From: Watersipora subatra | Lineage: Eukaryota > Bryozoa > Gymnolaemata > Cheilostomatida > Watersiporidae | Reading direction: 5' to 3' | DNA: 64,000 bases | Assembly: GCF_963576615.1 (NCBI RefSeq) | Contig: NC_088714.1 | Coordinates: 45,417,772 to 45,481,771, forward strand | Shown: piece by piece, positions 13,337 through 60,542 of the stretch | Layout: the number at the start of each line of letters is the position of its first letter | How positions within the stretch are numbered: the stretch's first letter is position 1 | Translations under genes and position numbers: made by a program | The notes under the pieces: generated by a model | Database searches by the model: none | What the model was told of the DNA's origin: nothing | Seen by the model: the letters and a program-made list of their open reading frames with translations, nothing else

Positions 13337-16300
13337 CTAGTCAGGTTTGGTTTTTTGCAACTCTTTAATCTTCTCCTCAGCGGCAGCTAACTTAGCTGTT
13401 AGTTCCGCAATCTGCCTTTGATACTGTGTTTCCGCTTTTCCTAGCTGCTTCCACTCTCTTTCATGTTCTCTTCTGTTCATCAAAATCTTCTCATCTAGGA
13501 ATAAAGAAGTTAGATTCATCCTAGAAGGAGTGATCATCTAAAGATTACAATCCTTAACCAAATCTAAAAAGCATATATTTTATACTGTATTATATTTATG
13601 CTTTTAAGATATTTCTCACTATGTCAATAACATTGACAACAGAAAAATAATGAGTTTTTTAGATTTTTATAAGTATGCTATTTACATATACAGTAATTTA
13701 ACTGCTTACAAACAGTTATTTTTGTAAATGAAGTATGTGTTACACAGGTATGATTGAAGTTGTATCAAAAAGCAATGTAGTTAAAATCGTTTTAGTCTAT
13801 GCATATTTTAGCCATTCACTTAAGATGATTATTTCCTTGCAAGCAACTATTCAACACAATTTTTTTATAAGTTTCTAAATTATCTAGTAGCTCCACATTC
13901 ATTACAATAAAAAATCTTTAGGATTTATCACCAAGCTAATAATAATAACTGCAGCAGTATATGAGAACAAGCTGTGAGAGAAGAACAAGTTTTTAAAACT
14001 AATATCACCTATAATGGGTGAATATCGAAGGTTAAAATCATGGAATGTATGATTCTTTTTTTTGTTCAAGTTACCAAATTTTTAATAATATTTTTCAGAC
14101 CTACCTTCAAGGCTGTTGTTTATTTCTGGGTCGGCCATAGGCTGAATAGCAGCTTTTATGTTTAAATGCAGATTTTTTTCTAATGATGGTGTTTGCTCAT
14201 TCACAGACAACAATTTGCTAGGAAGATCACTTTTCTGGGATGATCGAGGGCCAATATCTTGATATAGGTTTTCTTCAAAGTCATTCACTTAAAAATATTG
14301 AAACTAAATATATAAAGAATAATGAGAGCAAGAGCTAAATTGGTCTAGTTAAAATAATGATGCAAAAAAACATATGCAGTTTGCCTAATCTGCATAAAAA
14401 CTATATTTGTCTTACCATCACTGCTACGTCGTTACATAATACTCAAATGCAATTACATAAACTAACCCTTATTTTCTGAAAGTACATCAGGCTTGACTAC
14501 ATCTTCTGACTTCTCATCAGCTAGTCCTAAAAAACGCATTCACATATATATATAAATAATGTAAAGTTAATTTTGGTGGTAATATTGTTTTTTGCTATTA
14601 ATATATACTTCTTTTAAAGGATACCATGTTTACATGAAAACCAAAATCAAGTTATACCACAGTATTTTAGGATGTATTTACTAAATAAAACCATGAGGCT
14701 CTATTTTAATAACTTAAGAATACAAAGACTGCATGGCAAATGTTTATGAGCCAATCTTAATTTTGAATTTTTCATTGCAAGTGGCCTTGTTTACTTTCAG
14801 TTTATAACAGAAACGCTACAAAAAAGCTAGCAATAAATGCTTAGTATCATTTGGATTTTATATCTTAACCAGAGCATTTCTACTTTGGTAAGGTATATTT
14901 AATCACATTCTTTAAACAAATAATAATCATGATGACTCATTTTTAGCAACACAATAAAAATTTGTGACACGTATTTTGTGCTTCCTATTTGCATTGTTTT
15001 TAGAAAGCAGATGTACAGTTTTAATGAATATTTTATAAATTTCAAATTTAGGCCCAATTATTCAATTATACCATGAATTATGTACACTGCCAAAAACCTT
15101 AGATATACCTTCATAATATGAATCGGTATCTTTTGGTATCCTGCTTATAACACCCAATAGTTGAGTTTCGTTTCCTGCGGTCGTTTTCACAATTTCTGTG
15201 TCCTGTATCTCAGAGGGCATATCGAATTCATCTAAAAAATCGATTTGAAAGAAAGCAATGTTTCTGAAATAAATGTGTGCTTTACACAAATATATTAATT
15301 TTTTAATCTTTCAAAGTTTTTAGCACATTTGCATAAATAAGATTTTTCATTTGAGTTAAGGATTAAGTAATAGGCCTAGATATACTAAAAACTTTTTTAT
15401 TAGTAAGACAATAGAATATGCTCACTGTGAAGTTCTTAGATCTTATCAAAAGATTCACTAAACATACAAGCATTGTAGCATATCATGTACAGGTGAAACA
15501 GTAACCTAAAATTCTCTAGACATATGAGTTTTGTAACTCGTCATTACAACAAAAATTGTAGCATATGAATTCTAAGATGTGACTCTTGCAACATACCATA
15601 TGCAACTAAAACAGTTATTTACTTTTCAAAAACACCTTTAACATATAATGTTTGAAATTTTTAAAAGCATTGTAGTTTGGTCATCCCTAGCAAAGAAGCA
15701 GGTAGAAATTAGATTGATTAACCAAAAAAAGTTATATGTTTACTTAAACTTTATCAAGCATAATTTAGTGTAAGCTACACTAAATATTTTTATCGCTACC
15801 TCTATCTTTAAGCCAATCAAGTAAAATACAGCATACTCTTTAAAACATATTTGCTACAACACATGACAATTTCAACTATTTTAAAATTCTAGGAATTAAT
15901 TAACTCCATATGTTGAGGGATGGCTGTATAGCAAAGGCTAAGGTTAATAAGTAAAGTATTTTATATAGTGACTTGGTTTTCCATTGCGCTCAAATTTGTT
16001 GAATGTAAGGCATTTAAACTAGAAGTGTATACTTCCCACAATTTTAGGAAAAATAAAGAAGTTTTCACCTTTACTAGATTAACTAAAGGTACATGATAGC
16101 TAAGTTATGTTGAGTCCGTTGGCAGAGGGTAAGTGCACACATGGTGAGCACTAGTAAAAACAAGGATTCAAACTTTTTATAAGTATTGTAATGTTTGGTA
16201 TAATTTATGGTGTTTCCTAGTCTCTGGTATATCTTATCAAGTATATTCTAATCTCTGGTATATCTTATCAGGTATATCCTAGTTTCAGGTATATATTATC

Positions 16301-19300
16301 AAGTATATCCTAGTCTCAGGTATATCTTATCAAGTGTATCCTAATCTCAGGTATATCTTATCAAGTATGTCCTAGTCTCAGGTATATCTTATCAAGTGTA
16401 TCCTAGTCTCAGGTATATCTTATCAAGTATATCCTAGTCTCAGGTATATCTTATCAAGTGTATCCTAGTCTCAGATGTATCTTATCAAGTATATCCTAGT
16501 TTCAGGTATATCTTATCGAGTATATCCTAGTCTCAGGTATATCTTATCAGGTATATCCTAGTCTCAGGTATATCTTATCAAGTGTATCCTAATCTCAGGT
16601 ATATCTTATCAAGTATATCCTAATCTCTGGTATATCTTATCAAGTGTATCTTAGTCTCAGGTATATCTTATCAAGTATATCCTAGTCTCAGGTATATCTT
16701 ATCAAGTGTATCCTAGTTTCAGGTATATCTTATCGAGTATATCCTAGTCTCAGGTATATCTTATCAAGTATATCCTAGACTCAGGTATATTTTATGAGGT
16801 CTCTCCTAATCTCAGGTGTATCTTATCAAGTATATCCTAGTCTCTGGTATTTTATCAAGTGTCTTCTAACCTCATGCTAAAACCAAATGCATTCAATGTA
16901 CACTAGAAATGATTTATTGGAGTTGCTTGCAGGTTTTTGTAGACAAAGTAATTACCATTTCAGTCATAAATTGTTGTAATTTTTTTTAAAAAGATAACTC
17001 TAAATTTATAGATACACGAGTTGCTAAATTTGTACTTATGATCACGTACCCCATTTATTAATAACTATTTTTGACATTGGGTCTCGTGCATTCTTTCACG
17101 GTATGCACAAATAATGTTCCCTTCACTTTAGTGAACTACTAGGACAAAATCTAAACAATTATATTTTACCTTTAAGATAGTATGCTTCAATTTCATCTTC
17201 TGTAAGGGCAGGCATGAGATTCCTTTCTTTGGTTTTGGTGTATGTGTCTTTGAGTGGCTGTAAGGACAAATCTTGCAGATTTATGTTTGGGCTGATAACT
17301 GCTGCTGCCACTGCGTCGTCATCACTTGAAAGGTAATTCTTTTTGTCTTTTTGGGGAAACTTCATGGTTGTACCTTTGTCAACTGTAAAATAAATCAATG
17401 CAATAGTCTTTTTATTTTTAGATAACTGGAAGGTTCCTGAAAGTTCAAAAGTCAGCCATTTTAGTCACGATTTCAGTCACCACGTGTTAGAAGAAAAAGC
17501 TGTGAAAATTGGAGACCTAATGGCCGTGCAACAGTACTGGACCTACAGAATGCTGAGCAATCATTTCATGCTAGCAATTTATGGTTGGTGTAGCTATCAT
17601 CAATCGTTATAGGGCCAAACTGTTGCTGCATAAAGCTACAATAAACTATATATAAAACTTAAAAACACTCAGCATATAAGGAGTAGATACTGAGTGACAA
17701 TGTTTCTTGAGCATTTACGCCGATGAGAGTACTTAAAAAACATATTTAGAGATTTTAGAAATTTTCTAGTAAAGTGTTTGTAGAGTAAAGTAAAGGTTTA
17801 TTAAATCAGCATAAGCAAGGCTTTGCAAACCTTAGCTAGCAAACTATTGTATCTTTTGACATACCATCTATATTGTCATCTTCAGCATCTGCCATGGCTT
17901 TTGACTCCAACATCTCTATAGCAATCATTTCAGAAGTTTTTTTATCTTTGTCTTTGAACGAAAGAAGTCTCTGCATTTGTTTGCTAGTGAGAAGCTCAGC
18001 AACTTTTGATTTCACTGTTTCATGTTGTCCAGCAGAGGCAGCATGGTGAAGTAATGTTTTACCGGATAGATTAGGAAGTGTTATGATTTTGTCTCTGTTG
18101 CTATCATCTAACCGCTGGAGTAAAGAAAATAGTATTTCTGTCTGACCTGTACTAGCAGCATCAGCAACAGCTGTGTTTCCTGCATTGTCTTGGGTCACTA
18201 GCAAATCACATATCTGGACATTGACGAGAGCATCTAGAAGCATTTCAATGGCTGCCTTATGACCATTCAGCGATGCTTGGTGAATTGCAGTTTTACCTTC
18301 ATGATTGGCTTTAGTTAGCAGCTTGTAAATTACATTAACTTCTATTCGCTCCAAAAATATTTTCACTGTGCCTGTATTTCCTGTAGAGACTGCTTCAAAT
18401 ATAACATTATTGCCATCGATGTCTTGCATAGCCAGCAGTTCAATTTGTTTTTCGTTGTTTACCAGATTCATAATGACCTTTACAACCTCATTTTGTCCTT
18501 CATATGCTGCTAAATGAAGAGGGGTGCGACCATTATCATTTGCTATGCTTAACAAATCGCTGACATTGGCTGCTGGTAGAGACTTCAGAAATTCGATGGC
18601 CATATCTGTGTGTCCCATGCTCAGTGATATCAGCAAAGCATTATCGCCTTCACTATCCTCAACTGTGAGCGCATTGTACCAATCGAAAGAAGGCAGTTGT
18701 TCAACTAGAATAGGAATAAAACCAACATGGCCCAGCCAAGATGAAATATGTAAAGAAGAAAGGCCTCGTTGGTTCTTATGGGCTAACAGGTCTATTAAAG
18801 TCTCAGAGCTCACTGATTCTGCAATAACATTAAATGTTTCAACATCACCATTTTGAAACGTTAGATATAATGCTGTCATTCCATCCAATGTCTCAAGTTT
18901 TAGAAGATTATGCCTTTCTGGTAAATTTACTGCTTCGAGAATGTATTTTAAAGCTTGTGTGTGTTTTCTCTCAGCAACCAATACTAAAGCTGTGCTTTTT
19001 TTTGTGTTTTGCTGCTGCAACAGACAGTATCTTTGAGAATCATCGAGCGAGTCTAGGATGGTTTTTAAGGCAGCAAATTGATCTGAAACAGCTGCCCTAT
19101 GAAGAGCAGTTTCTCCCTCTTTGTTTTTAGTTTGTAGAACCTTTAGCTTAGAGTCGGGGTTTATAATGTTTAATATCCAGTCTATCATTGTCGTATGACC
19201 ATTGAACGCAGCAAGAGAAAGGCCCGTGTCACCGAGACTATCCTGTGAATTAATTAAAGCATTGATCTCCTCATTAGAAACCAGTCTGTGAAAGGTTTCA

Positions 19301-20535: not shown

Positions 20536-20729
20536 TGTTGAATATGTACTAGTTTTAGACTTTGACTACTGTCATTATCTTGTATTTATATATAGCTGTT
20601 GTCATACTCTTTGTTCATATTGACTTACTCACCTGTTATGTAATTGTTATGTAATAATCCTTTTACTCTCTTGTCTCACTTATGTAGTAAGTCAGTTGCT
20701 GTTTAGCTTTCAAATATACAAGACTAACA
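20536..20729 (+). repeat. Left LTR of copia element
   Basis: TG...CA-bounded, 194 bp, identical by eye to the right LTR. It contains AT-rich TATA-like TTTATATATAG at about 20584-20596. Confidence 0.95.
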
Positions 20730-20743
20730 GGTTATGGGCCCAG
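20730..20743 (+). promoter_or_regulatory. Primer-binding site (initiator-tRNA anticodon-arm type)
   Basis: GGTTATGGGCCCAG directly follows the LTR. Its complement is the anticodon arm of initiator tRNA-Met (around the CAU anticodon), as I recall for Drosophila copia, where an internal half-tRNA fragment primes minus-strand synthesis. Confidence 0.7.
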
Positions 20744-20909
20744 GCAGGCAAACAAAGAAGCTGTACATGAGTTTGATACCAGAAAAAGGGTGATCGGCTA
20801 TTATACTGACTGACCAACGACTGGTGAACCAGGAGTTAAACAATTGATACCATGAACAGTGAAACAAGCACTACTGAACCAGAACATAGATTCTACCTCT
20901 CATTCTACA

Positions 20910-21446
20910 ATGGATAGTGATAAATGGACAATAGATAAGTTGGACAGTCAGAACTATCAGACATGGAAGTTCCAGATGAAACACATTTTGCTGCTAAAGG
21001 ATCTATACGATATCGTGGATGGTACTGAGAAAGCACCAGAAGGTTCAGCTGATCAAGCGCTGAAAACTGCTTTTAAATCCAGGTATCGTAAGGCTTTCTC
21101 AGTAATTGCTCTATCTGTTAGTACTGAACTTCTCTACTTAATAACAGATACAGAAGCACCTGATGTAGCATGGAAGCGGCTGCAAAACCATTTTGAACGT
21201 AAAAATGACAATGGCTGTGTAGGCAATGAATTTACATTTATCACTCATCATAGCAATACATCTTCATTGCACTGTAGCTCATCCTGGCTAATTGACTCGG
21301 GAGCATCGTGTCAGATGACACCTAACAGGGAAAGTTTTAATAGCTACAAGAAGCTAGAACAAATAGCAATGGTCAGCCTAGGTGATGGTCGAACAGTTGA
21401 AGCTGTGGGAGTTGGTGTTGTAAGTGATGCTAAAGCTCAATCGTAG
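20910..21446 (+). CDS. Copia gag (shortened) fused to start of protease
   Basis: Start ATG at 20910 gives MDSDKWTIDKLDSQNY, the usual copia gag opening. The gag amino-terminal domain runs to about residue 98 (LQNHFERK), then the frame jumps to a protease active-site segment WLIDSGASCQMTP. The middle and end of gag, including the CCHC zinc knuckle, are absent, so there is an in-frame internal deletion of probably 150 or more codons. The frame then ends at TAG 21444-21446 inside the protease domain, a short way into the downstream pol frame. The protein would lack nucleic-acid-binding gag function. How it compares with intact family members needs another genomic copy. Confidence 0.85.
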   Translation: MDSDKWTIDKLDSQNYQTWKFQMKHILLLKDLYDIVDGTEKAPEGSADQALKTAFKSRYRKAFSVIALSVSTELLYLITDTEAPDVAWKRLQNHFERKNDNGCVGNEFTFITHHSNTSSLHCSSSWLIDSGASCQMTPNRESFNSYKKLEQIAMVSLGDGRTVEAVGVGVVSDAKAQS

Positions 21447-24318
21447 AGTTCAATGTGCATCTGCATTTTACAATGTACTTCATGTCCCTCAGCTAACAAG
21501 CAGTTTATTTTCAGTTCGAGCTGCCACTCAGAAAGGCTACATTGTTCAGTTCGGCCATACTCGATGTTGGATTAAGGATGCTAGTGGTCGAGTTAGGGCC
21601 ATGGGATCACTAGCTAATAAGCTGTTCAGTCTAGACTGTGTACAAACTGAAACTCAATATGCAAACACTGCTAGCGCAGAGATTTGGCATCAACGTCTAG
21701 TACATGTGAATAGCACTACTCTGAAAAAACTGAGTAAAGGAAATATAGTCTGTGCTACAAGCTTACCTGCAATAGACATTTCTTTTTGTGAAGGCTGTGC
21801 TGAAGGAAAGATGACTCGTAAACCCTTCAAACCTGTGGGAGATATCAAGGCTACCCAGAAGCTGGAACTAGTGCATTCTGACGTTTGTACAATGGAAACA
21901 GAATCAATTGGAGGTAGCAAATACTTTGTTACCTTTATAGACGATTTTTCTAGATGCTGTGCTGTGTATTTTCTTAGAAACAAATCTGAGGTACCTGAGA
22001 AGTTCAAAGAGTTTGAAGCACATACAACCAACCAATCTGGAAAAACCATTAAAACACTGAGATCAGATAGAGGTGGTGAATACTTGTCTCAAGAATTTAC
22101 CGACTACTTGAAATCTAAAGGTATTCATCATGAACTCACATCAGCTTACTCACCGCAACAAAATGGTGTTGCTGAGCGAATGAATAGAACTCTGTGTGAA
22201 GCAGCGCGTTCAATGTTGTGCCATGCTAAATTGTCAAAGCAATACTGGGCTGAGGCCATTTCTACTGCTGCCTACGTTAGAAATCGGCTTCCTACTTCCT
22301 CACACAAGAATGATCTCACACCGTATGAGAAGTGGTATGAACGCAAACCCAACATAGACAATCTAAGGGTGTTTGGATGTATTGCTTATGCTCATGTTCC
22401 AGATCAACTGCGACAGAAACTTGACAAGAAGTGCCAGAAGCTAAGGTTTATAGGATACAGCAAACAGTCAAAGGCATACCGCCTGCTTGATGAATCGACT
22501 GGTAAAGTCACTACTAGGCGAGACGTGGTATTTGATGAAACAAACTTTACAAATACCGTTAAACCATCATGTGACCAATATACAAAGCAGAAATCTATTC
22601 TTGTTGAACATTCAGTAAATGAACAGACAACTCCAAACCTATCTGGACAATGCACTGGTGAAGGGCAACAGCGACGCATATCTGCTCGCGAACGTAGACC
22701 TCCGGTTCGCTATGGAATTGATGAGTATGTAAGCCAGGCTCAACACGTTGCTCATCAAGCTGGTCACATAATTGAACCAGAGACATTCTCAGAGGCAAAA
22801 CAAAGCTCTCAACATAAGGAATGGATAGAAGCTGCTAGGTGTGAGTATCAGTCACTGATAGATAATAATACCTGGAATCTTACAGAGTTACCTCAAGGAC
22901 GTAGTGCTGTTGGATGCAAGTGGGTGTTTAAAGCTAAACATCGAGGTGACGGAACTATAGAGCGATTCAAAGGTCGTCTAGTAGCTAAGGGTTATTCACA
23001 GCAGCATGGAATAGACTATCATGAGACATTCTCACCTGTTGTTGGTTTTGCAACAATTCGTACGCTACTGGCATATGGTCTTAGTCGCAACATGTACATT
23101 CATCAAATGGACGTTGTAACTGCCTTTTTGAATGGCAGACTTGATGAAGAAGTCTACATGTCTCAACCAGAAGGTTTTATTAAACCTGGATCTGAACATC
23201 TCGTGTGTAAACTCAACAAGTCTATTTATGGACTGAAGCAATCCCCTAGATGCTGGAATCTTGCTCTAGATAGTTTTCTGAAGTCTATAGATTTTTGTCA
23301 GTCCACTACTGACCCATGTGTATATGTTAGGGATAGCAATTCAGGCATCAAAACTATAATGGCTGTATACGTTGACGATCTCATTATAATGAGTGATGAC
23401 GATGCATCATTAATGCAAGTGAAGCATGCTCTCTCAAATCAGTTTAAAATGAAAGACTTAGGACCACTGCACTATTGCTTGGGAGTTAATATTGATCAAC
23501 ACGAATCTTCAATATCTTTAGATCAACAGTACTATCTTCAGCAAGTCATCAATCGCTTTGGTATGCAAGACTCAAACCCGGTATCCACACCTGCAGACAT
23601 AAATGTTAAACTCATAAAAAATGATGGAATCAGTAAGCCTGTAGATTCAAAAAAGTATCAAGCAATGGTTGGTTCACTTTTATATGCTTCAGTTGCAACA
23701 CGTCCAGATATAGCACAAGCAGTAAGTGAAGTGTCAAAGTACAACTCATGTCCAACAGAAGCTCATCTTACTGCTGTAAAGCGAATCATACGCTATATCA
23801 AAGGAACACTGACAACTAAACTTTGCTACAACAAGTCAGATGAAACTAAAGTCATCGGTTATTCCGATGCAAACTGGGCTGGAGACTTAGATAATCGATG
23901 TTCTACTTCAGGTAATGTGTTTCTAATGTCAGGTGGAGCTGTAAGCTGGCAAAGCAAACGTCAAAATACTGTAGCCGTCTCAACGGCAGAAGCTGAATAC
24001 GTCTCGTTATTTCATGCAACACAAGAAGCAATGTGGTTACATAAGTTACTCAATGACATTGATGGCAAGGATGCTCATATGCCTACAACATGCATGGTTG
24101 ACAATCAAGCAGCAATCGCTATAGCTAAGAACACCGCAACAAAATCCCGAACAAAACATATTGACATCAAATATCACTTTCTGAGAGAAGCTGTTGCAAA
24201 TGGACACATTCTTATTAAATACTGTCCATCCGCTGATATGACTGCCGACATCTTAACTAAACCCCTATGCAGAGACCGCTTTGTAGTACATCGGCAGAAC
24301 ATGGGGCTAACAGATTAA
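21424..24318 (+). CDS. Copia pol: protease end, integrase, reverse transcriptase, RNase H
   Basis: This frame is +1 relative to the gag-protease frame and overlaps it by 23 bases; there is no credible initiator of its own. In order: the protease tail with LHVPQLTSSLFSV; the pre-integrase zinc domain (HQRLVH..CEGCAEGK); the integrase core with D..D and an E in the QQNGVAERMNRT region; reverse transcriptase with YVDDLIIMSDD; RNase H with YSDANWAGD and STAEAEY; and the DNQAA..KHIDIKYHF tail. It ends in tandem TAA stops 30 nt before the right LTR. The break lies within protease rather than at a gag/pol boundary, so a disabling indel is likelier than programmed frameshifting. Enzyme domains otherwise look complete. 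Confidence 0.9.
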   Translation: MMLKLNRRVQCASAFYNVLHVPQLTSSLFSVRAATQKGYIVQFGHTRCWIKDASGRVRAMGSLANKLFSLDCVQTETQYANTASAEIWHQRLVHVNSTTLKKLSKGNIVCATSLPAIDISFCEGCAEGKMTRKPFKPVGDIKATQKLELVHSDVCTMETESIGGSKYFVTFIDDFSRCCAVYFLRNKSEVPEKFKEFEAHTTNQSGKTIKTLRSDRGGEYLSQEFTDYLKSKGIHHELTSAYSPQQNGVAERMNRTLCEAARSMLCHAKLSKQYWAEAISTAAYVRNRLPTSSHKNDLTPYEKWYERKPNIDNLRVFGCIAYAHVPDQLRQKLDKKCQKLRFIGYSKQSKAYRLLDESTGKVTTRRDVVFDETNFTNTVKPSCDQYTKQKSILVEHSVNEQTTPNLSGQCTGEGQQRRISARERRPPVRYGIDEYVSQAQHVAHQAGHIIEPETFSEAKQSSQHKEWIEAARCEYQSLIDNNTWNLTELPQGRSAVGCKWVFKAKHRGDGTIERFKGRLVAKGYSQQHGIDYHETFSPVVGFATIRTLLAYGLSRNMYIHQMDVVTAFLNGRLDEEVYMSQPEGFIKPGSEHLVCKLNKSIYGLKQSPRCWNLALDSFLKSIDFCQSTTDPCVYVRDSNSGIKTIMAVYVDDLIIMSDDDASLMQVKHALSNQFKMKDLGPLHYCLGVNIDQHESSISLDQQYYLQQVINRFGMQDSNPVSTPADINVKLIKNDGISKPVDSKKYQAMVGSLLYASVATRPDIAQAVSEVSKYNSCPTEAHLTAVKRIIRYIKGTLTTKLCYNKSDETKVIGYSDANWAGDLDNRCSTSGNVFLMSGGAVSWQSKRQNTVAVSTAEAEYVSLFHATQEAMWLHKLLNDIDGKDAHMPTTCMVDNQAAIAIAKNTATKSRTKHIDIKYHFLREAVANGHILIKYCPSADMTADILTKPLCRDRFVVHRQNMGLTD

Positions 24319-24347: not shown

Positions 24348-24541
24348 TGTTGAATATGTACTAGTTTTAGACTTTGACTACTGTCATTATCTTGTATTTA
24401 TATATAGCTGTTGTCATACTCTTTGTTCATATTGACTTACTCACCTGTTATGTAATTGTTATGTAATAATCCTTTTACTCTCTTGTCTCACTTATGTAGT
24501 AAGTCAGTTGCTGTTTAGCTTTCAAATATACAAGACTAACA
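24348..24541 (+). repeat. Right LTR of copia element
   Basis: Preceded by a GTGGGAG polypurine tract (24341-24347) and followed by the second copy of the GGTTT target duplication. Confidence 0.95.
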
Positions 24542-24605
24542 GGTTTGAGGACACCTATATACAGGTTTAAGGATACTGGTATACAGGTTTAATGACATTT
24601 GTATG
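24542..24605. repeat. 22-bp minisatellite, right part
   Basis: Three more copies (AGGTTTGAGGACACCTATAT, and similar) continue the array interrupted by the copia insertion. Confidence 0.8.
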
Positions 24606-38051: not shown

Positions 38052-39727
38052 ATGCTGCCTTTATTCCTTCTAGCCTTGCCTAAAATATTGATGAAGTATG
38101 TTCACCATTTCTGGGTGAGGATTGTGAAACTTATTTGGGTGCTTAATGGTGAGTTTAAACATATTTTGGTGCGTCTAAGCAGTTATAACTACTGTTCTGA
38201 ACATTTTTTAGGCTCTTATAGAAAATAGTTATAAAGTGCGTATGTCATGCAAAAAGTGTGTTGCTGATGTTTAGAAGCTGCAACGAAGTTTGTTACTATG
38301 GCAGCAAACAGCAAGTGAACATATGATAAAAAACTGTTTTGTAATTTTATCATAGCATTCTGGCACAGTTAAACTTTTCATTGCAAATATTGCCTTTAAA
38401 CAAGGTTTCAAGATTAAAAGCCTTTCTAATCTATGTTTACTCCTAACATTTTGTTATCATCTCAGGTACAATTTATCTGGTTTACAAATTTATTTTAGGG
38501 ACTTCCGCAAAGATAGAATCTGCAATGAGTGGTAAAGAAGCTGCAGCCCCGGCTCATGTGCAGAGAGTGGTGTGGATCAATCCTTCTAGTAACCAATTAA
38601 ATCCGCAAAGTTTTTTCACTGTTCATGAAAGGTTTGCGCCCGCCGATATTGTTTTGGATAATAGGGTGCATCTTCTGTCAGTCACTTCAAAGACAGCAAC
38701 ATTCACAGAGGTTGACTCTGACATACTTGATTCAAGAAAACATCCTTTTATATGGTTGGCTCAAATAAGGCGTTGTACCAGATTGATTGTTCTACCAGTT
38801 CAATCCTTTTATAAGTTGGTAGACAAGATCGATGTGGAAGATCGAAAAGTAGTTTGGCTCTTCCATACAACCAGATGCGGGTCCACAGCCTGGGTGCAGG
38901 CATTTAACTCTATACCGGGATGGGTTGCCTTTTCTGCACCACAAGCTTTGCATTACAGTATTGTACATGGTGACCATGGTTATAGCTGCGCAGAAAGCTT
39001 TTCTAAAACAGAAGAATACAGACGTATATTGATAGCCACAATAACAGTGTATCTACGACAAACACCTCCAGGTTGGTCAGTCTTATGGAAGGCAATTCAT
39101 CTTGATGAGCACATGATAGGCCATCTCGTAAGGCGTTTTCCCCAGCATAAGCTTCTTGTAGCATATCGAGATGTCCTCCCTGTAGTTAGTTCCTTTCAGC
39201 GAGCTTTTGGGAATTCCGCAACCCTGCGTTATATCGCTGAAAAGCTGATGTACCGAGATCCTTCAGATGTTAAATGGTGGTCTCATATATCCAATTTGGG
39301 CACATTTACTAATGGCTTCAACCATGACTTTTGTATGAAGGTCATTGCTAGGGTAAGACCAAGGACTCTTATCGAATGGTCCTGCTTTACATGGTGTGCC
39401 AAGTTGACTACAATACAGCAGGCTCAACAGAATGGAATCAATATTAAACCACTCAAGTATGATGGTCTGGCAGAAAACAAACGAGCGACAGTTGTCAAAC
39501 TTTTTGAATATTTGGACATCTCATCTGATTATGTAGATTTAGCGTGCGAAGCATTAAACTATGACAGCCAAGCGGCGGCTCCGAATGTCGAGTGGAAAAC
39601 CGGAAACACAAAAGAGCAATACCAATGGATGAAGGATGGTGAAGTTGTTAAGCGGTGCAACATGATATTAGAAGAATTCAGTTTCCCTACTCTTGGCAGT
39701 TCATTTGATTTTCCAAATAGCATATAA
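38052..39727 (+). CDS. Sulfotransferase-like protein, copy A (two exons)
   Basis: Exon 1 is 38052-38148 (GT donor, GGTGAGT), exon 2 is 38499-39727 (acceptor TATTTTAG), phase 1; 441 aa. The exon-1 start (AAGCATGC) is conserved in every complete copy. The joined frame gives an N-terminal hydrophobic and basic segment (MLPLFLLALPKILMKYVHHF) continuing through GTSAKIESAM into exon 2, so the internal ATG at 38525 is probably not the start. A P-loop HTTRCGSTAW (about 155-164) fits a 5'-phosphosulfate loop, and LLVAYRDVLPVVSSFQ (about 251-266) the 3'-phosphate motif. A LKYDGLAENK segment precedes the usual C-terminal helix. The family is probably PAPS-dependent sulfotransferases; acceptor unknown. 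The N-terminus could be a Golgi/ER anchor or signal peptide. All key motifs are intact. Confidence 0.85.
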
Positions 39728-45556: not shown

Positions 45557-47252
45557 ATGCTGCCTTTATTTCTTCTAGCCTTGCCTCAAATACTGCTGAA
45601 GTATTTTCACCATCTCTGGGTGAGGATTGTGAAACTCATTTGGGTACTTACTGGTAAGTTTAAACATATTCTGGTGAGTTTAAACAGTTATAACTATTGT
45701 ACTTAGTGCTTTCTTAGGTTTTATAAAAAAGTAGTTGTAAAGTGTGTATGTCATGCAAAAGGTGTAATGGTGATGCTCTGAAACTGCAACAGATGGAGTT
45801 TGTTGTTATGGCAGCAAACAGCAAATAAACATATATAATAAAAAATTGTTTTGCTAAATTATCATAGTATTCTGTAACAATCAAACCTCTCATAGCAAAT
45901 ATTGCCTTCAAAAAAGTTTCAAGATTAAAAGCCTTACTAATGTATTAATAATATTAATATTAAACTCCTAGCACTTTGTCATCAGTTCAGGTACATTTTT
46001 ATGTAGTTTACGAATTTATTTAGGAACTTCTGCAAAGATAGAATCTGCAATGAGTGGTAAAGAAGCTGCAGCTCCGGCTCATGTGCAGAGAGTGGTATGG
46101 ATCAATCCTACTAGTAGCCTTGCAGTTCCGGAAAGTTTTTTCACTGTTCATGAAAGGTTTGCACCCGCCGATATTGTTTTGGATAATAAGGTGCATCTTC
46201 TATCAGTCACTTCAAAGACAGCAACATTCACAGAAGTTGACTCTGACATACTCGATTCAAAAAAACATCCTTTTATATGGTCAGCTCAAGTAAAATGTTG
46301 TACCAGATTGATTGTTCTACCAGTTCAATCATTCTATAAGTTGGTAGACAAGATCGATGTAGAAGATCGAAAAGTAGTTTGGCTTTTCCATACAACCAGA
46401 TGCAGGTCCACAGCCTGGGTGCAAGCATTTAACTCTATACCGGGATGGGTTGCCTTTTCTGCACCACAAGCTTTGGTTTACAGTGTTGTACATGGTGACC
46501 ATGGTTATAACAGCGCCGAAAGCTTTTCTAAAACAGAAGAGTACAGACGTATATTAATAGCTATAATAACAATGTATCTACGACAAACACCTCCAGGTTG
46601 GTCAGTCCTATGGAAAGCAATTCATCTTGATGAGCACATGATATACCATCTCGTAAGGCGTTTTCCTCAGCATAAGCTTCTTGTAGCATATCGAGATGTT
46701 CTCCCTGTAGTTAGTTCTTTTCAGCGAGCTTTTGGGAAGTTTGTAAATCTGCGTTATCGCGCTGAACAACTTAGGTATCGAGCTCCTTCAGATGTTAAAT
46801 GGTGGTCTCATATGTCCAATTTGGGCACATTTACCAACGGTTTCAACCATGACTTTCGTATGAAGGTCATTGCTAGGGTAAAACCAAGGACTGTTATCGA
46901 ATGGTCCGTTTTTACATGGTGTGCCAAGTTGACTACTATAAAGCAGGCTCAAGAGAGTGGAATTAATATTAAACCACTCAAGTATGATGGTCTGGCAGAA
47001 AACAAACGAGCAACAGTCGTCAAACTTTTTGAATATTTGGATATCTCATCTGATTATGTAGATTTAGCCTGCGAAGCATTAAACTATGACAGCCAAGCAG
47101 CGGCTCCGAATGTCAAATGGAAAACCGGAAACACAAAAGAGCAATACCAATGGATGAAAGATGGAGAACTCGTCAAGCGGTGCAACATGATATTAGAGGA
47201 GTTTAGTTTCCCTCTTCTTGGCAGTTCATTTGATCTTGCAAATAGTATATAG
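45557..47252 (+). CDS. Sulfotransferase-like protein, copy B (two exons; altered P-loop)
   Basis: Exon 1 is 45557-45653 (donor GGTAAGT), exon 2 is 46024-47252 (acceptor TTATTTAG); phase 1, 441 aa. Layout matches copy A, and the 3'-phosphate motif YRDVLPVVSSFQ is intact. The P-loop reads TTRCRSTAW instead of TTRCGSTAW: one G-to-A change turns the conserved glycine (about residue 160) into arginine. Other private changes include HGYNSAES (for HGYSCAES), ...LRYRAEQLRYRAP and IEWSVFTW. The frame is intact, so it is either an altered or inactive enzyme, or a recently relaxed copy. Close to copy C in both coding and upstream sequence. Confidence 0.8.
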
Positions 47253-47807: not shown

Positions 47808-49410
47808 GCTTAACCTATCGTCACTTTACTTGGAAAGAATTTGTACCCCAGACTCTTAGCAACAGTTTGTAGGACAGTAAATCATATTTTGTAAAAGACC
47901 ATGATTGTTATAACATCTAATCTTCCTCTTCTCTTTCGATCCTGTATAATATCATCTCACCGATATTTATTAACCTATAACTTCCTTGAATCGCAATTGG
48001 TTTATTTATATTAACTATGAGGTGCATATCTAGGCGGTACTCACATGTATTTACTTTCAAGTGATCTCACTTCACTCCGTTATTGCGCAACATTGTGTAC
48101 CCTTTGAATAAACTAAAGTCAAAAAAGAAAAAGTGGTTTTTCAATGCAGGTTGTATCGATACAAATAAATTTGTAAACTATTTGTTACAAACATTTTTAG
48201 GAAATCTTTGTCACGAGTACAGTTGTAAACTACAAGCATCTGAGAAGCTAGTGATAACCAAATGCACTCCATTGTTTCGCCATGATCATAGTGAGGTGTA
48301 AATGCCAGAGCTGTATTATGTAACATAGCTCTTGTATTTTAGCATCGAGTATTGGATATTGTCAGCTGGAGTATTCTATATTCTTAAGTATTTGAACACA
48401 TAATGAAAATATTGCAGTTGTTAGTATTTGGACGGTTTTTAGTATTGGTTTCAAGCCTGGTGTTACCTTGGATGTACATTTTATGTCTTTTATAATAAAC
48501 CAACAACGCCAGAGCTTTACTAGAGAAGTAAACACAAAGTTATGGAATATATCCACATTCTATTCTGAAGCAAGCAATGGCATAATTGCGCAAATGCGTT
48601 TTCTATAGTTGAAAAACCTTCTGATAGCTGTAATTAAAGAATTTACGGTCTCTGTGTAACTACTTTACACTGCTAAAAAATTGTTTTTTTATATTCCAAA
48701 CTGAACTTAAAGTTTTCTTCAAACGGTTATCATTTAGCAAAAGACAACTTTTTGTTGTTTCTATTAGTTACACGAATGACAGCAGTTTTAAAATTGAACT
48801 TACACCAATTTTTTTACATTTCACTAAAAAGTATCGATATTTTTCTATCATTTGTGATTGTCTTTGATGTTTGAGGTATCTGACTGTCAGGATTGCTCTA
48901 GATTAAAAGCAACAAACCTTGATCTGTGGTTAAAATGCTCAAAAGAAAAATACATGCAAAATTACGTCATTGGCTTTTACCGTTGCAATAGTTTACACTG
49001 GTTGTTGCAATACACATCTTTATTTTGTCGGTCTTTTTGCAATTATAGATGTCATAATCACACTTTCGCTTTCTCTAGACCTTTTTACCGTGATCAAGTT
49101 ATATCGATTTTAATCTTGAAACCTCCTGGCAGTCAGACCACTTCGAACATCAAAAACAATCGCAAATAATAGAAAACACCGATACTTTCTGATAAAATGT
49201 ACAAAAATTTGGAGCGAGTTTGTCTTTAAAAAGTGAAATGGACTATTAGGTCAAAACAATACAACTTGTTAGAACATGGCCATTACTTGTTTATAGTTTT
49301 ATGAATCTATTATAATTGCAGAAGAATATTGCACTAAATATTGTTTAGGTAGTTAGTTCAGCTGTTTATGTATTAAGCATCTTTTGTTACTTAACAAAAA
49401 CATACTTGTT
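47808..49410. other. 3' flank of copy B
   Basis: Block-colinear with 40285-41136 and 55130-56080 (for example TTGCGCAACATTGTGTAC). No gene is seen. Confidence 0.5.
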
Positions 49411-52394: not shown

Positions 52395-54078
52395 ATGCTG
52401 CCTTTATTCCTTCTAGCCTTGCCTCAAATACTGCTGAAGTATGTTCACCATCTCTGGGTGAGGATCGTGAAACTCATTTGGGTGCTTAATGGTAAGTTTA
52501 AACATATTTTGGGGAGTCTAAACAGTTATAACTACTGTACTTAGTGCCTTTTTAGGTTTTATAAAAAGTAGTTGTAAAGTGTGTTTGTCATTCAAAAGGT
52601 GTGTTGCTGATGCTCTGAAACTGCAACAGATGGAGTTTGTTGTTATGGCAGCAAACAGCAAATAAACATATCATATAATAAAAAATTGTTTTGCTAAATT
52701 ATCATAGTATTCTGTAACAGTCAAACCTCTCATAGCAAATATTGCCTTCAAAAAAGTTTCAAGATTAAAAGCCTTACTAATCTATGTATACTCCTAGCAC
52801 TTAGTTATCAGTTCAGGTACACATTTATGTAGTTTACGAATTTATTTAGGAACTTCTGCAAAGATAGAATCTGCAATGAGTGGTAAAGAAGCTGCGGCTC
52901 CGGCTCATGTGCAAAGAGTGGTATGGATCAATCCTACTAGTAGCCATGCAGATCCAGAAAGTTTTTTCACTGTTCATGAAAGGTTTGCGTCCGCCGATAT
53001 TGTTTTGGATAATAAGGTGCATCTTCTGTCAGTCACTTCAAAGACAGCAACATTTACAGAGGTTGACTCTGACATACTCGATTCAAGAAAACATCCTTTT
53101 ATATGGTCAGCTCAAGTAAAATGTTGTACCAGATTGATTGTTCTACCAGTTCAATCATTCTATAAGATGGTAGACAAGATCGATGTAGAAGATCGAAAAG
53201 TAGTTTGGCTTTTCCATACAACCAGATGCGGCTCCACAGCCTGGGTGCAGGCATTTAACTCTATACCGGGATGGGTTGCCTTTTCCGCACCACAAGCTTT
53301 GCATTACAGTGTTGTACATGGTGACCATGGTTATAGCTGCGCAGAAAGCTTTTCTAAAACAGAAGAGTACAGACGTATATTAATAGCTATAATAACAATG
53401 TATCTACGACAAACACCTCCAGGTGGGTCAGTCCTATGGAAAGCAGTTCATCTTGATGAGCACATGATAGGCCATCTCGTAAGGCGTTTTCCTCAGCATA
53501 AGCTTCTTGTAGCATATCGAGATGTCCTCCCTGTAGTTAGTTCTTTTCAGCGAGCTTTTGGGAAGTTTGTAAATCTGCGTTACATCGCTGAACAACTGAT
53601 GTACCGAGATCCTTCAGATGTTAAATGGTGGTCTCATATATCCAATTTGGGCACATTTACCAACGGTTTCAACCATGACTTCTGTATGAAGGTCATTGCT
53701 AGGGTAAGACCAAGGACGATGATTGAATGGTCTTGCTTTACATGGTGTGCTAAGTTGACTACAATACAGCAAGCTCAACAGAATGGAATCAATATTAAAC
53801 CACTCAAGTATGATGGTCTCGCAGAAAACAAACAAGCGACAGTCGTCAAACTTTTTGAATATTTGGAAATCTCATCTGATTATGCAGATTTAGCCTGCGA
53901 AGCATTAAACTATGACAGCCAAGCGGCGGCTCCGAATGTTGAGTGGAAAACCGGAAACACAAAAGAGCAATACCAATGGATGAAAGACGGTGAACTTGTC
54001 AAGCGGTGCAACATGATATTAGAGGAGTTTAGTTTCCCTCTTCTTGGCAGTTCATTTGATCTTGAAAATAGCATATAA
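52395..54078 (+). CDS. Sulfotransferase-like protein, copy C (two exons)
   Basis: Exon 1 is 52395-52491 (donor GGTAAGT), exon 2 is 52850-54078 (acceptor TTATTTAG); phase 1, 441 aa. The N-terminus is MLPLFLLALPQILLKYVHH. P-loop TTRCGSTAW and YRDVLPVVSSFQ are intact, so it is a good candidate for an active member. A private change is PPGGSVLW for PPGWSVLW. Nearest to copy B in sequence. A MITE-like insertion sits in the 3' flank where copies A and B have AATAAA, so 3'-end formation may differ. Confidence 0.85.
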
Positions 54079-55124: not shown

Positions 55125-56585
55125 ATTTTATAAAGCTTAACTTATTTTTACTTCTAAGAATTTATACCCCAGACTCTTACTAGCGACTTGTAGGACAGTA
55201 AATCATTTTCTTAGATACCCTGATTATTCTAGCATCTAATCTTTCAACTCTCTTTCAATTCTGTACAATGTCATTTCAACAGCATTTATTAGCTATTAAT
55301 TTCCTTGAAGGGCAAATGGTTTAGTTATATAATAAGGTATTATAATATAAGGTTGTAATTAGTTAGTTATAATTATAAGGTATTATAATATACGTGCATA
55401 GTTATTATTATCTATGCACGTATTTATTTACTTAAAACTAATCTCACCTTACTTAGTTATTGCGCAACATTGTGTACACTTTCGATAAAATAGAGTCAGA
55501 AGACAAAAAGTGTTTTTTCAATGCAGATGGTATTGGTGCAAATAAATTTGTAAACTACTTGTTACAAACTTTTATTACGAGATCTTTATCGTAAGTAGAG
55601 TTGTAAACTACAAGCATCGAAGAGGTTAGTGATAACCAAATGCACTCCATTGTTGCGCTATGATCATAGGGAGATGTCAATGCAAGAGCTGTCTTATGTA
55701 ACATAGCTCTTGTATTTTAGTATTGGGTATTGGTCTTAAGTATTCAAACACATAGTAAAAGTATTGCAACTGTTAGTATTTGAACAGTTTTGAGTATTGG
55801 TTTCAAACCTGGGGCTACCTTGGATGTATATTTTATGTCTTTTATGGTAAAAAACCAACGCCAGAGCTTCACTAGAGAAGTAAACACAAAGTTATGGAAG
55901 ATATCCGCATTCTATTCTGCAGCAAGCAATGGCAATATTGCGCAAATACTTTTTCTATAGTTGAAAAACTTTTTGATAGCTGTAATTAAAGAACTTACGG
56001 TCTCTGTGTAACTACTTTACACTGCTAAAAAACTGCTTTTTTCATTCCAAACTGAACCTAAAGTTTGATTCAGATGGTTATTATAGCAATTTTGTTTGAA
56101 CTTTCAAAAATTGCTAAAACTTTTGGCGTGGAACTTTACTGATGATGATGCAGTTACTGGACATTTCTTTATTCCTTTATTACATTGACAAACATCAGCA
56201 CCAACACCGTGAAGTCTAAAAACATAAAGTTACTATGGTAAGTACTAATTATAAACAGCAAAACAGCAATATTATGTAACGAGTAATTGGTTATACTAAG
56301 TGGTCAAGCCGAGACATTACACAGGCATTCTTCTAGCAAATTACATCAATTAAGCATTTGATACATGTGAAAGCATTCATGGCTAAGCACAGTTCAATAA
56401 CCACTACTTTGTAAACAAAAGGCAGAAAAAATAAAATACACATACCTTTTGCTTTCTTTCTAGCATTTTGTTGAAAATACTTGATAAATACAACAGGGTA
56501 TAAAATGTTAAAGAAAGTTTGTAAAAACATATCATTTTCTTTAATGGCTAGCTAAGCCAGACTGACTAGGGTGAGTGCAGGAAAA

Positions 56586-56587
<2 letters not shown>
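55125..56587. other. 3' flank of copy C
   Basis: Colinear with 47808-48750 to about 56080. The rest is unassigned; no gene is seen. Confidence 0.45.

Positions 56588-56652
<65 letters not shown>
56588..56652. repeat. (TA)n microsatellite
   Basis: About 32 uninterrupted TA dinucleotides, at the 5' truncation point of the PLE fragment. Confidence 0.95.
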
Positions 56653-56655
<3 letters not shown>

Positions 56656-56657
<2 letters not shown>

Positions 56658-56982
56658 TATATATATTGGACTTTTCGAAACAACGTTTAAGGCTCGCTAC
56701 TCTAACCACAGAGCAACATTTAATGACACCAACAAGAGAAATAAAACCAGCCTTAGCAAACATATATGGTAGCTAAAAGATCACACTGAGTATGACATTA
56801 AATGGAGCATTGTCAAGCAATCTGCTGCATACAACAACACTTCTAATTTGTGCAACTTGTGCCTGCTTGAAAAATATTACATTATTATGCACCCTGAAAA
56901 GAGTAGTCTGAATAAACAACAGGAAATAATATCAACCTGCAGACATGATAGAAAATTTCTTTTAGCTGACAGTATTACATAA
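56656..56982 (+). pseudogene. Penelope-like element GIY-YIG endonuclease fragment
   Basis: The frame begins at VIYIGLFETTFKARYSNH, includes NKTSLSKHIW, DIKWSIVKQS and CNLCLLEKYYIIMH, and ends at RKFLLADSIT and TAA (56980-56982). This order (YIG, R-NH, a W-x-L-KD segment, CNLCL-E) is that of the C-terminal GIY-YIG endonuclease of Penelope-like retroelements. The reverse transcriptase is missing and the fragment starts in the TA microsatellite. One in-frame TAG lies at 56769-56771, after SKHIW. It is a 5'-truncated, broken copy followed by a hammerhead-bearing 3' region, as known for PLE terminal repeats. Confidence 0.8.
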
Positions 56983-57159
56983 ACACTCACTGTATATCAT
57001 TTTAATTTACTTTTTGGTAAACTTTGTTTGTGGACAATAACTTTTAGAAGCTCTCTATCTCATATGTAAGCTACAGGCTTGTACCCTGATATTTTAATCT
57101 TTTAATGATGCAGTTTTGAATGTGAGCCCTAACGTTGGCAATAGGGTAGTCATTTTAGC

Positions 57160-57218
57160 ATGAGTTGTTGTCTGATGATTGTACTCTGTACATGAAACTA
57201 TTAGTAACAAAAACTCAT
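57160..57218 (+). ncRNA. Hammerhead ribozyme, PLE-associated (motif 3)
   Basis: Core CTGATGA at 57172-57178 and GAAA at 57194-57197. Stem I pairs 57160-57171 with 57207-57218 (11 of 12 pairs). Stem II is TGTAC/GTACA with a TCT loop. Stem III is a minimal CTA/TAG. Predicted cleavage follows A57206 (GUA). The closing pair of stem II is a U-U mismatch where G-C is usual, so activity may be weak. It lies about 180 bp after the PLE endonuclease. Confidence 0.6.
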
Positions 57219-57512
57219 TTTTAGTCATCTCTTACTTCTTTTATATTTTAGCTCTTACTTCTAGTAATAGAGCATTATGCGAGAGAATCGTGACATTACT
57301 CTATATATATATATGTATATATATATATATGTACTATGGTAAGTACATATATAGGTGCGGCACTATTAGCCTTTGTGCAAAGCTCATCACTTTTGTGATT
57401 TGAGCACTCTGGTGTCAGCACATTGACTTTCTTAAAGTCTGTGAGGCAACCTAGTTGTTTCATGGCAGGAAGTCAACTCTCATTGGTAATGAGATTTGCG
57501 TCCCTTGCCTAA

Positions 57513-57571
57513 GCTCTGAGCTGCACTGATGAGGCTTCAATAGCCGAAACAGTACTGTCTGTAGCATGAGT
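57513..57571 (+). ncRNA. Type I hammerhead ribozyme, unit 1
   Basis: CTGATGA (57526-57532), stem II GGCT/AGCC with a TCAAT loop (57533-57545), GAAA (57546-57549), stem III CAG/CTG with a 2-nt loop, cleavage after C57559 (GUC). Stem I inner part is GAGCTGCA-side pairing with TGTAGC (six pairs including one G-U); after a small internal loop an outer CTC/GAG follows. All conserved core bases are present. The very short stem III suggests activity as a dimer. Confidence 0.85.
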
Positions 57572-57771
57572 ATGTGCTCCCTCACTTCGGTTTGGTTGAG
57601 CACTCTGTGAGAGGTGCGGCACTATTAGCCTTTGTGCAAAGCTCATCACTTTTGTGATTTGAGCTCTCTGGTGCCAGCACATTGACTTTCTTAAAGTCTG
57701 TGAGGCAACCAAGTTGTTTCATGGCAGGAAGTCAACTCTCATTGGTAATGGGATTTGTGTCCTTTGCGTAA

Positions 57772-57830
57772 GCTCTGAGCTGCACTGATGAGGCTTCAAT
57801 AGCCGAAACAGTACTGTCTGTAGCATGAGT
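57772..57830 (+). ncRNA. Type I hammerhead ribozyme, unit 2
   Basis: Same sequence as the first at every core and stem position: CTGATGA 57785-57791, GAAA 57805-57808, cleavage after C57818. The distance between cleavage sites is exactly 259 nt. Confidence 0.85.
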
Positions 57831-57832
57831 AT

Positions 57833-58695
57833 ATATATATGTATATATATAAGGCAAAACAAAGATATTTATTCAGTTGTTACTCTTCAATTGGTCCCCC
57901 CACCAGACTTGGAACCATACTCCAGTCCAATGACAGTATGGGCAACCCCGGGGTAATGACAGTATGAGGAACCACAAAAATGACGAGGTCAGCAACAATA
58001 AAACCGAAGGTCTGTAAAACAGCTTTAGTTTAAACAACAGGAAACTGGTTTGACCACCACATATGTGTGCTTTATTGCTGAAATGACCATACAAATAAAA
58101 TGACCATACCAACAGATAAAATCATTTCTTTTGCAGGTAAATGATTCTATGAGTGAGAGAGTCAATGTGCAGCATACGTCTACAATTGTTTTAAAAGTAT
58201 ACAAATGTTTACAGTTATTATTTAGCAAGAGACAAATTTTCTGCTAGATGCTAGTTACGCGGAGGACACTGGTTTTAAAGTTGCACTTACACCAAATCTA
58301 TTTACCATTTACAAAAAATAATCGATATTTTTATATCATTTCTGATTGCCTTTGACGTTTGAGCTGATCTGACTGCCAGGATGTTTCCAGATTAAAATTG
58401 ACAAAATTTGATCTACGGTTAAAATGCTGCATAAAAATACATTCGTTGAGGCTACAAGGCATATATTTGTTGCACAAATGTATATACTGTGAAGTTGCTG
58501 CTTTATTCAAAAACAAGCAACTGGCATTTAGTAAATAGGCCTTTGAATAGTTAATAACCATTACACTGAACTCATGATATGTGAAAATTCATAACCTTAA
58601 AATGAGCCCCATACCAGGTCAAAATATAAGACTTTTTATTGATCAACTAAAGCGTCTGCTGAATAGTTAATGATTCTTTAACTAGGACTCAAAGT
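57833..58695. other. Intergenic between ribozyme repeat and unit D
   Basis: 57833-58330 is unassigned repeat-like sequence. From about 58330 the upstream block shared with unit C (TTAATAACCATTACACTG, CAGGTCAAAATATAAGAC) begins. No gene is seen. Confidence 0.45.
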
Positions 58696-58845: not shown

Positions 58846-60542
58846 ATGCTGCCTTTATTCCTTCTAGCCTTGCCTCAAATATTGATGACGTATGTTCACC
58901 ATCTTTGGGTGAGGATTGTGAAACTTATTTGGGTGCTTAATGGTAAGTTTAAACATGTTTTGGTGAGTCTAAACAGTTATAACTACTGTACGTAGTGCTT
59001 TCTTAGGTTTTATAAAAAAAGTAGTTCTAAAGTGTGTATGTCATGCAAAAGGTGAATTGCTGATGTTTTGAAACAGTGACAAGCAGAATTTGTTGTTATG
59101 GCAGCAAACAGCAAATAAGCATATCATATCATAGAACATTGTTTTGCTATTTTATCATAGCGTTCTGTAACAGCCAAACCTCTCATAGCAAATATTTCAT
59201 AGCAAATATTGCCTTCAAACATGGTTTTAAGATTAAAAGCCTTACTAATCTAACTCCTAGCACATTTTTATCAGTTCAGGTACATTTTTATGTGGTTTAC
59301 AAATTTATTTTAGGAACTTCTGCAAAGATAGAATCTGCAATGAGTGGTAAAGAACCTGCAGCTCCTGCTCATGTGCAGAGAGTGGTGTGGATCAATCCTA
59401 CTATTAATCAAGGAAATCCGCAATGTTTTTTCACTGTTCATGAAAGGTTTGCGCCAGCCAATATTGTTTTGGATAACAGGGTGCATCTTCTGTCAGTCAC
59501 TTCAAAGACAGCAACATTTACAGAAGTTGACTCTGACATACTTGATTCAAAAAGGCATCCTTTTGTATGGTTTGCTCAAATCAAGCGTTGTACCAGATTG
59601 ATTGTTCTACCAGTTCAATCCTTCTATAAATTGGTAGACAAGATCGATGTGGAAGATCGAAAAGTAGTTTGGCTTTTCCATACAACTAGATGCGGCTCAA
59701 CAGCCTGGGTGCAAGCTTTCAACTCTATACCGGAATGGGTTGCATTTTCTGCACCACAAGCTTTGCGGTTTAGTGTTGTTTTTGGTGACCATGGTTTTAG
59801 TTGCGCGGAAAGCTTTTCTAAAACAGAAGAATACAAACGTATATTGATAGCCACAATAACAATGTATCTACGACAAACACCTCCAGGTTGTTCAGTCTTG
59901 TGGAAAGCATTCCATCTTGACGAACATATGATACACCATCTCGTAAGGCGTTTTCCTCGGCATAAGCTTCTTGTAGCGTATCGAGATGTTCTCCCTATAC
60001 TTAGTTCGTTCCAGCGAGCTTTTGGAAATTATACCGAGCTGCGGTATCTTGCCGAAAAACTGATGTACCGAGATCCTTCAGATGTTAAATGGTGGTCTCA
60101 AATATCCAATTTGGGGTCAAATACTAATGGTTTCAACCATGACTTTTGTATGAGGGTCATTGCTAGAGTAAGACCAAAGAATCTCATTGAATGGAACTGC
60201 TTTAGATGGTGTGCCAAGTTGACTACAATACAGCAGGCTCAACAGAATGGAATCAATATTAAACCACTCAAGTATGATGGTCTCGCAGAGAACAAACGAG
60301 CAACAGTCATCAAACTTTTTGAATATTTGGACATCTCATCTGATTATGTAGATTTAGCCTGCGAAGCACTAAACTATGACAGCCAAGCGGCGGCTCCGAA
60401 TGTCGAGTGGAAAACCGGAAAGACAAACGAGCAATACCAATGGATGAAGGATGGTGAACTTGTCAAGCGGTGCAACATGATATTGGAAGAATTCAGTTTC
60501 CCTCCTCTTGGCAGTTCATTTGATCTTGCAAATAGCATATAA
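58846..60542 (+). CDS. Sulfotransferase-like protein, copy D (two exons)
   Basis: Exon 1 is 58846-58942 (donor GGTAAGT), exon 2 is 59314-60542 (acceptor TATTTTAG); phase 1, 441 aa. The N-terminus is MLPLFLLALPQILMTYVHH. P-loop TTRCGSTAW and 3'-phosphate motif YRDVLPILSSFQ are intact. It is the most diverged full copy around the presumed acceptor region: ALRFSVVFGDHGFSC, FGNYTELRYLAEK, RPKNLIEWNCFRW. The intron happens to be open in the exon-2 frame from 59076, which could mislead gene finders into a 488-aa single-exon model; conservation of exon 1 argues for splicing. Confidence 0.85.

Follow-up and report, generated by a model that had tools for sequence, protein, structure and literature searches.

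What kind of element carries two hammerhead ribozyme motifs repeated in direct order within an AT-rich stretch of DNA, and what would move such an element? The question is raised by a locus in the window analysed here, which is the whole stretch of 64 kb (35% GC). The preliminary description had claimed a 259-bp tandem dimer bearing two identical hammerheads whose cleavage sites lie exactly 259 nt apart, and all three claims were borne out. TRF returned a period of 259 with 1.9 copies and 96% matches for 57353-57832, no difference was observed between the two ribozymes over their 62 nt, and the predicted cuts have exactly the claimed spacing (Table 1). The two copies of the dimer, 57353-57573 and 57612-57832, are identical at 214 of 221 positions. 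None of the seven differences falls inside the ribozyme; such an outcome has a probability of 0.096 by chance, therefore the identity of the ribozymes is by itself no evidence of constraint. Both flanks of the dimer consist of (TA)n, which makes its target duplication unreadable; a 22-bp (TA)n stretch containing one G is found on both sides, but being simple sequence it proves little. No second dimer locus was found within the 64-kb window.

Table 1. Features of the locus, with positions in the window.
Feature	Position	Strand	Remarks
Insertion of about 2.1 kb holding the dimer and the neighbouring block	56090..58210	.	Missing from the paralogous tandem gene copy at 48740
Neighbouring block, presumed Penelope-like, 5'-truncated and broken	56246..57331	+	Exact 15-bp repeats TACTATGGTAAGTAC on either side
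Presumed GIY-YIG-type endonuclease, C-terminal part	56671..56982	+	Translation; one in-frame stop
Candidate third hammerhead, minimal type I, tentative	57161..57217	+	CTGATGA 57172-57178, GAAA 57194-57197, GTA 57204-57206
Tandem dimer, very probably of a retrozyme	57353..57832	+	480 bp: two 221-nt copies with a 38-nt unique part between them
Type I hammerhead ribozyme 1	57512..57573	+	Predicted cleavage after C57559; viral covariance models R1, R2
Stem III, 10-nt palindrome ACAGUACUGU	57549..57558, again 57808-57817	+	Either a hairpin of 3 bp in a single ribozyme or a duplex of 10 bp joining both
Unit releasable by double cleavage (predicted), 259 nt	57560..57818	+	46.7% GC; predicted circle 70% paired
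Single-occurrence 38-nt part between the copies	57574..57611	+	Hairpin GUGCUC/GAGCAC, UUCG tip, -10.3 kcal/mol
Type I hammerhead ribozyme 2	57771..57832	+	Predicted cleavage after C57818; scores same as ribozyme 1

Both sites possess the full core and the paired stems that had been ascribed to them. The CUGAUGA core lies at 57526-57532 in ribozyme 1 and at 57785-57791 in ribozyme 2. In both, stem II has 4 bp (GGCU/AGCC) with the loop UCAAU and is followed by GAAA, stem III has the pairs A-U, C-G and A-U, is closed by GUAC and is followed by the GUC cleavage triplet, while stem I is made of an inner 6 bp (one G-U), an internal loop and an outer 4 bp (one G-U). Since stem I is the open stem, the hammerheads are of type I, and both sites show the complete arrangement of this type (core CUGANGA...GAAA...UH, three stems, stem I open). 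The internal loop in stem I and loop II, the sequence of which is common to viral hammerheads, are possible loop-loop partners. On their sequence we take it as confirmed that the two sites are type I hammerhead ribozymes, with cleavage predicted.

The covariance-model check proposed in the preliminary description came out in favour of the hammerheads with models built from viral hammerheads, which recognised both sites strongly, although Rfam scored them below its gathering score. Two models, R1 and R2, were trained on viral hammerheads only, with no window sequence included, and their E-values are rough by the tool's own statement. When the whole 64-kb window was searched with filters off, R1 gave 50.5 bits (E 1.6e-13) for both sites, the next best of its 21 rows being at 11.1 bits (E 1.7). 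As part of the viral panel had been selected using the window's loop II, the model was rebuilt as R2 from those 51 of the 70 aligned rows which lack this loop; R2 gave 46.8 bits (E 2e-11) for both sites, with a runner-up among 26 rows at 10.6 bits (E 2.5). Thus, in both models the dimer sites stand at least 36 bits above the next site. At the gathering score Rfam returned 0 matches in the whole window, and in a relaxed search of 561 bases the two sites reached 20.8 bits (E 0.015) and 22.8 bits (E 0.0033) with HH9, whose gathering score is 52; these two matches had the lowest E-values among 17 rows. The Rfam gathering score is a curation cut-off and no defining property of a hammerhead ribozyme. 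We also searched the window with pattern descriptors. The first returned four rows, namely both sites, a longer-stem-III variant of ribozyme 1 and a weak minus-strand match. The second, which was widened only after a third motif (57161-57217) had been noticed, found three sites in the window against 0 in 500 dinucleotide shuffles of the 64 kb.

The viral hammerheads behind these models came from IMG/VR contigs. A scan for the core together with stem II and its loop found 116 stretches with 119 sites. The free stem II pair was Watson-Crick in all of them (119/119), and 101 of the sites combined a cleavage triplet and stem I with a stem III that was short and closed. A second, looser scan gave at least 120 stretches, and both scans together comprise at least 217 loci and at least 131 distinct sites of the looser pattern, duplicates and sites less than 14 nt from a locus end being left out. 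Of the 131 sites listed from this combined set, 128 had a Watson-Crick pair at the free position of stem II and 120 a stem I of at least 4 bp. The alignment A1 holds the first 70 of at least 95 sites with less than 88% identity whose stem I has 4 bp or more and whose stem III has 3 or more; 98.2% of its cells pair, and its covariation score is 0.772 against 0.145 when shuffled. In one of five measures, the double-sided pair changes, A1 was no better than the shuffles (11 against 10.4).

Compared with these IMG/VR type I hammerheads, the ribozymes of the dimer are alike in core, stem II and loop II, and an identical GGCUUCAAUAGCC was noticed in 27 of the 119 sites, a set picked by that loop. 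The stem III region, on the other hand, is longer in the viral hammerheads, measuring 12 nt in 61 of the 70 aligned rows where the dimer has 8. The loop II UUCAAUA is common to the retrozyme and the 119 viral sites (L001-L116), a set chosen by loop, and it was also the commonest loop (31 of the 131 sites listed) in the combined set, which is partly loop-selected. When the dimer was compared by BLAST with 218 viral loci, only two of 360 rows fell outside the ribozymes, and both were the same 21-nt match in L218. This match, an exact 18-nt pattern that extends to 21 nt, was considered as a relative of the retrozyme body and rejected; we take it as chance, since it is part of an ORF of 666 aa and no hammerhead was matched in L218 up to E 1. 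The exact 34-nt pattern from the ribozyme core to the cleavage site occurred 0 times in bacterial and archaeal genomes. One viral contig (L019, 1264-2934) carries three type I hammerheads with starts 368 and 1278 bases apart.

Cleavage at both predicted sites would release a unit-length RNA, and this unit was folded as a circle. Its energy of -88.0 kcal/mol compares with -72.6 +/- 5.0 for 200 dinucleotide shuffles (z -3.1, with 1 of 200 as low), and 70.3% of the predicted circle is paired against 64.9 +/- 3.4% in the shuffles, in line with the pairing of about 70% or more that characterises the circles of metazoan non-LTR retrozymes. The longest stop-free stretches on the circle are 41 codons on the plus and 81 codons on the minus strand, and the unit is accordingly taken as non-coding. 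ARAGORN found no tRNA gene in the window.

The form of stem III raises the further point of whether each ribozyme would act singly. Two copies of stem III were predicted to form a 10-nt duplex of -13.4 kcal/mol, while a single copy gave no predicted hairpin. For the lone 62-nt ribozyme an alternative fold of -18.3 kcal/mol was favoured over the hammerhead fold of -14.7 kcal/mol by an energy model which excludes loop contacts; in the viral panel the median of this gap, 3.6 here, is 0.2, and it reaches 3 or more in 13 of 70. Given a stem III that is a perfect palindrome yet weak by itself, the folding model and the analogy with published relatives suggest that cutting may be most efficient when both ribozymes act as a pair. 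Axolotl ribozymes, according to parts of PMC7229834 and PMC7761336, cut far better as dimers, and they include one whose stem III of two pairs and a tetraloop can be likened to the form seen here. In the same parts of these papers, however, this form of stem III is said to resemble that of invertebrate ribozymes (PMC7229834, PMC7761336), and because most of these cut alone an invertebrate-type stem III counts against paired cutting.

Taken together, we conclude that the dimer is very probably a metazoan non-LTR retrozyme, that is, a non-autonomous and non-coding retroelement. According to parts of Cervera and de la Pena 2020 (PMC7229834), such elements consist of repeats of about 170-400 nt with type I hammerheads and range from dimers to large multimers. 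The retrozyme layout proposed earlier agrees with the published metazoan elements in size, ribozyme type and dimeric form. Like the retrozymes of Acropora, Mytilus and Ambystoma, the locus shows type I hammerheads, a unit of 170-400 nt and a tandem dimer, and it also resembles them in being non-coding, in its self-paired circle (predicted here) and in a short helix III with a tetraloop. The GC content of metazoan retrozymes is put at less than 50% in the text and at less than 45% in the Figure 1 legend of PMC7229834, and the unit lies below the former and above the latter. Its 259-nt body gave no match to the sequences searched. That this body had looked unfamiliar is as expected, since retrozyme sequences and sizes are species-specific (PMC7229834, in part). 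Where target duplications are present in metazoan retrozymes they exceed 4 bp (sections of PMC7229834), and the Nematostella repeats have 15-bp duplications (a portion of PMC4918200). The dimer adds a new example to a well-described kind and is ordinary in type. Plant LTR retrozymes are alike in that direct repeats with hammerheads delimit a circular RNA, predicted in our case (PMC4918200, in part), but they differ in their type III ribozymes, a spacing of 600-1000 bp, the presence of LTR, PBS and PPT, and a 4-bp target duplication (parts of PMC7229834 and PMC7761336). Instead of type III hammerheads in LTRs of about 350 bp, we observed type I hammerheads in 221-nt copies.

By analogy with these published relatives, read-through transcription would produce an RNA carrying two type I hammerheads, and if both cut, a 259-nt RNA would be freed, which a host ligase of the RtcB kind could then close into a circle. 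A reverse transcriptase acting in trans, probably from a Penelope-like element, would copy the circle into tandem cDNA, and this cDNA would be inserted into AT-rich DNA. Which enzyme moves animal retrozymes is treated as an open question in the relevant parts of PMC7229834 and PMC7761336, and Penelope-like elements are proposed as a strong helper candidate (PMC7229834, in part). A Penelope-like enzyme cuts AT-rich DNA according to portions of Frangieh 2024 (PMC11167929); by this analogy the AT-rich site of the dimer fits cutting by such an enzyme, although it is no proof of it.

A retrozyme may also be present as a dead relic, i.e., as a real retrozyme insertion that is no longer transcribed or mobile. 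This is compatible with the retrozyme reading and was given a probability of its own; we consider it possible, though the lesser chance. The seven positions out of 221 at which the units of the dimer differ speak for decay, as does the in-frame stop in the adjoining presumed Penelope-like stub, whereas the two ribozymes are both intact and identical over 62 nt, an agreement which is itself possibly due to chance (p 0.096).

The surroundings of the dimer bear on the second alternative. The dimer, together with a neighbouring block, lies in an insertion, since the flanks at 55902-56089 and from 58211 onward align side by side with 48550-48955 near the paralogous copy. They have 18 bp in common, which from the alignment reads as an imperfect target duplication of the insertion. 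Five segments of the insertion were searched for and had no other occurrence in the window, the dimer's own repeat aside. The outer parts of the insertion are 56090-56230 and 57856-58210. The block is bounded by TACTATGGTAAGTAC at 56231-56245 and 57332-57346, two sites in the window where 0 of 100 shuffles had two, and the dimer starts 6 bp past the second of these 15-bp repeats and 21 bp past the block itself. A shared (TA)n target for the dimer and the presumed Penelope-like block was also considered, but it lost weight, as the exact 15-bp repeat points to a separate, non-(TA) target duplication for the block.

The block is presumed to be the remains of a Penelope-like element on the basis of a protein motif. 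The translation of 56671-56982 ends in a CxxC...CRH pattern, which we take to be like that of Penelope-like element endonucleases. This protein was matched by nothing in viral contigs, PDB, plasmids, phages or Pfam, none of which is known to be rich in animal retroelements. No part of the block was identified as reverse transcriptase. Downstream of the presumed stub we noticed a possible third hammerhead, put forward tentatively. It is among the three hits of the widened descriptor, which had 0 in 500 shuffles, and R1 gave it 8.6 bits with E 0.17 in 901 bases and did not list it among the 21 whole-window rows; R2 gave it 8.7 bits (E 9.4). Both scores are at chance level for 64 kb. It has a U.U mismatch at the stem II base, and a relaxed search found no Rfam hammerhead family for the motif. 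Its stem III region of 7 nt is longer than that of the helix-III-less Penelope-like form (PMC7761336, in part).

With such a neighbour, the repeat could be the pseudo-LTR of the adjoining Penelope-like element, with no separate retrozyme at all. The closeness of the dimer to the presumed block would suit this explanation, and type I hammerheads do occur in Penelope-like pseudo-LTRs (parts of PMC11167929 and PMC7761336). We nevertheless consider it improbable. When 56060-58260 was compared with itself, leaving out rows shorter than 14 nt and A/T-only rows, the dimer matched the block only in (TA)n-dominated rows with a best E of 1e-4, and the 25- and 15-nt matches (E 2.1) fell on the other side of the dimer. 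Moreover, the candidate hammerhead of the block is of different sequence and a 15-bp repeat stands between block and dimer. The Penelope-like hammerheads of Frangieh 2024 (PMC11167929, in part) are alike in type I topology, with the presumed stub 21 bp away, but Penelope-like hammerheads are described as minimal in parts of PMC7229834 and PMC7761336, whereas in the ribozymes of the dimer stem III is closed and stem I contains an internal loop.

An integrated infectious viroid-like or satellite circular RNA would likewise present a small self-paired circle, as predicted here, with a hammerhead. The minus strand of the dimer, however, is without a CUGANGA core and has no model match above 5.3 bits in 57000-57900, and a genomic tandem dimer is the usual form of a retrozyme (PMC7229834, in part), which makes such an origin very improbable. 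A chance tandem duplication of unique DNA holding a hammerhead-like motif, which could be entertained in so far as a single locus was examined, is scarcely credible against model E-values of at most 2e-11 and a descriptor with 0 in 500 shuffles.

Returning to the retrozyme reading, it may be asked whether one and the same enzyme inserted both the retrozyme and the presumed Penelope-like stub, which has a candidate hammerhead of its own. We regard this as rather unlikely. If true, a helper and its parasite would have landed within about 20 bp of one another in the 2.1-kb insertion, and the genome would directly support a helper role of Penelope-like elements, which is suspected and unproven. 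What the dimer adds is a pair of ribozymes of intact sequence, a paralogous site that is empty of the surrounding insertion and, 21 bp off, a presumed Penelope-like stub; such junctions, gathered genome-wide, could test which enzyme mobilises animal retrozymes.

The insertion 56090-58210 lies beside one of several tandem copies of a long-ORF gene (38525-39727, 46050-47252, 52876-54078, 59076-60542 and from 62670), which over 1.3-3 kb are about 81-89% alike. The two copies scanned showed a sulfotransferase match that is weak and below the cutoff. Elsewhere in the window, ORFs of a copia-type retrotransposon (gag, integrase, RT) are found at 20859-24318. Two repeats of 198 bp, at 20536-20733 and at 24348-24545, are 100% identical, so they are probably the LTRs of a young copia-type insertion. 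The window also contains an ankyrin-repeat ORF and, at 16215-16860, a tandem array of about 21 copies of a 31-bp unit.
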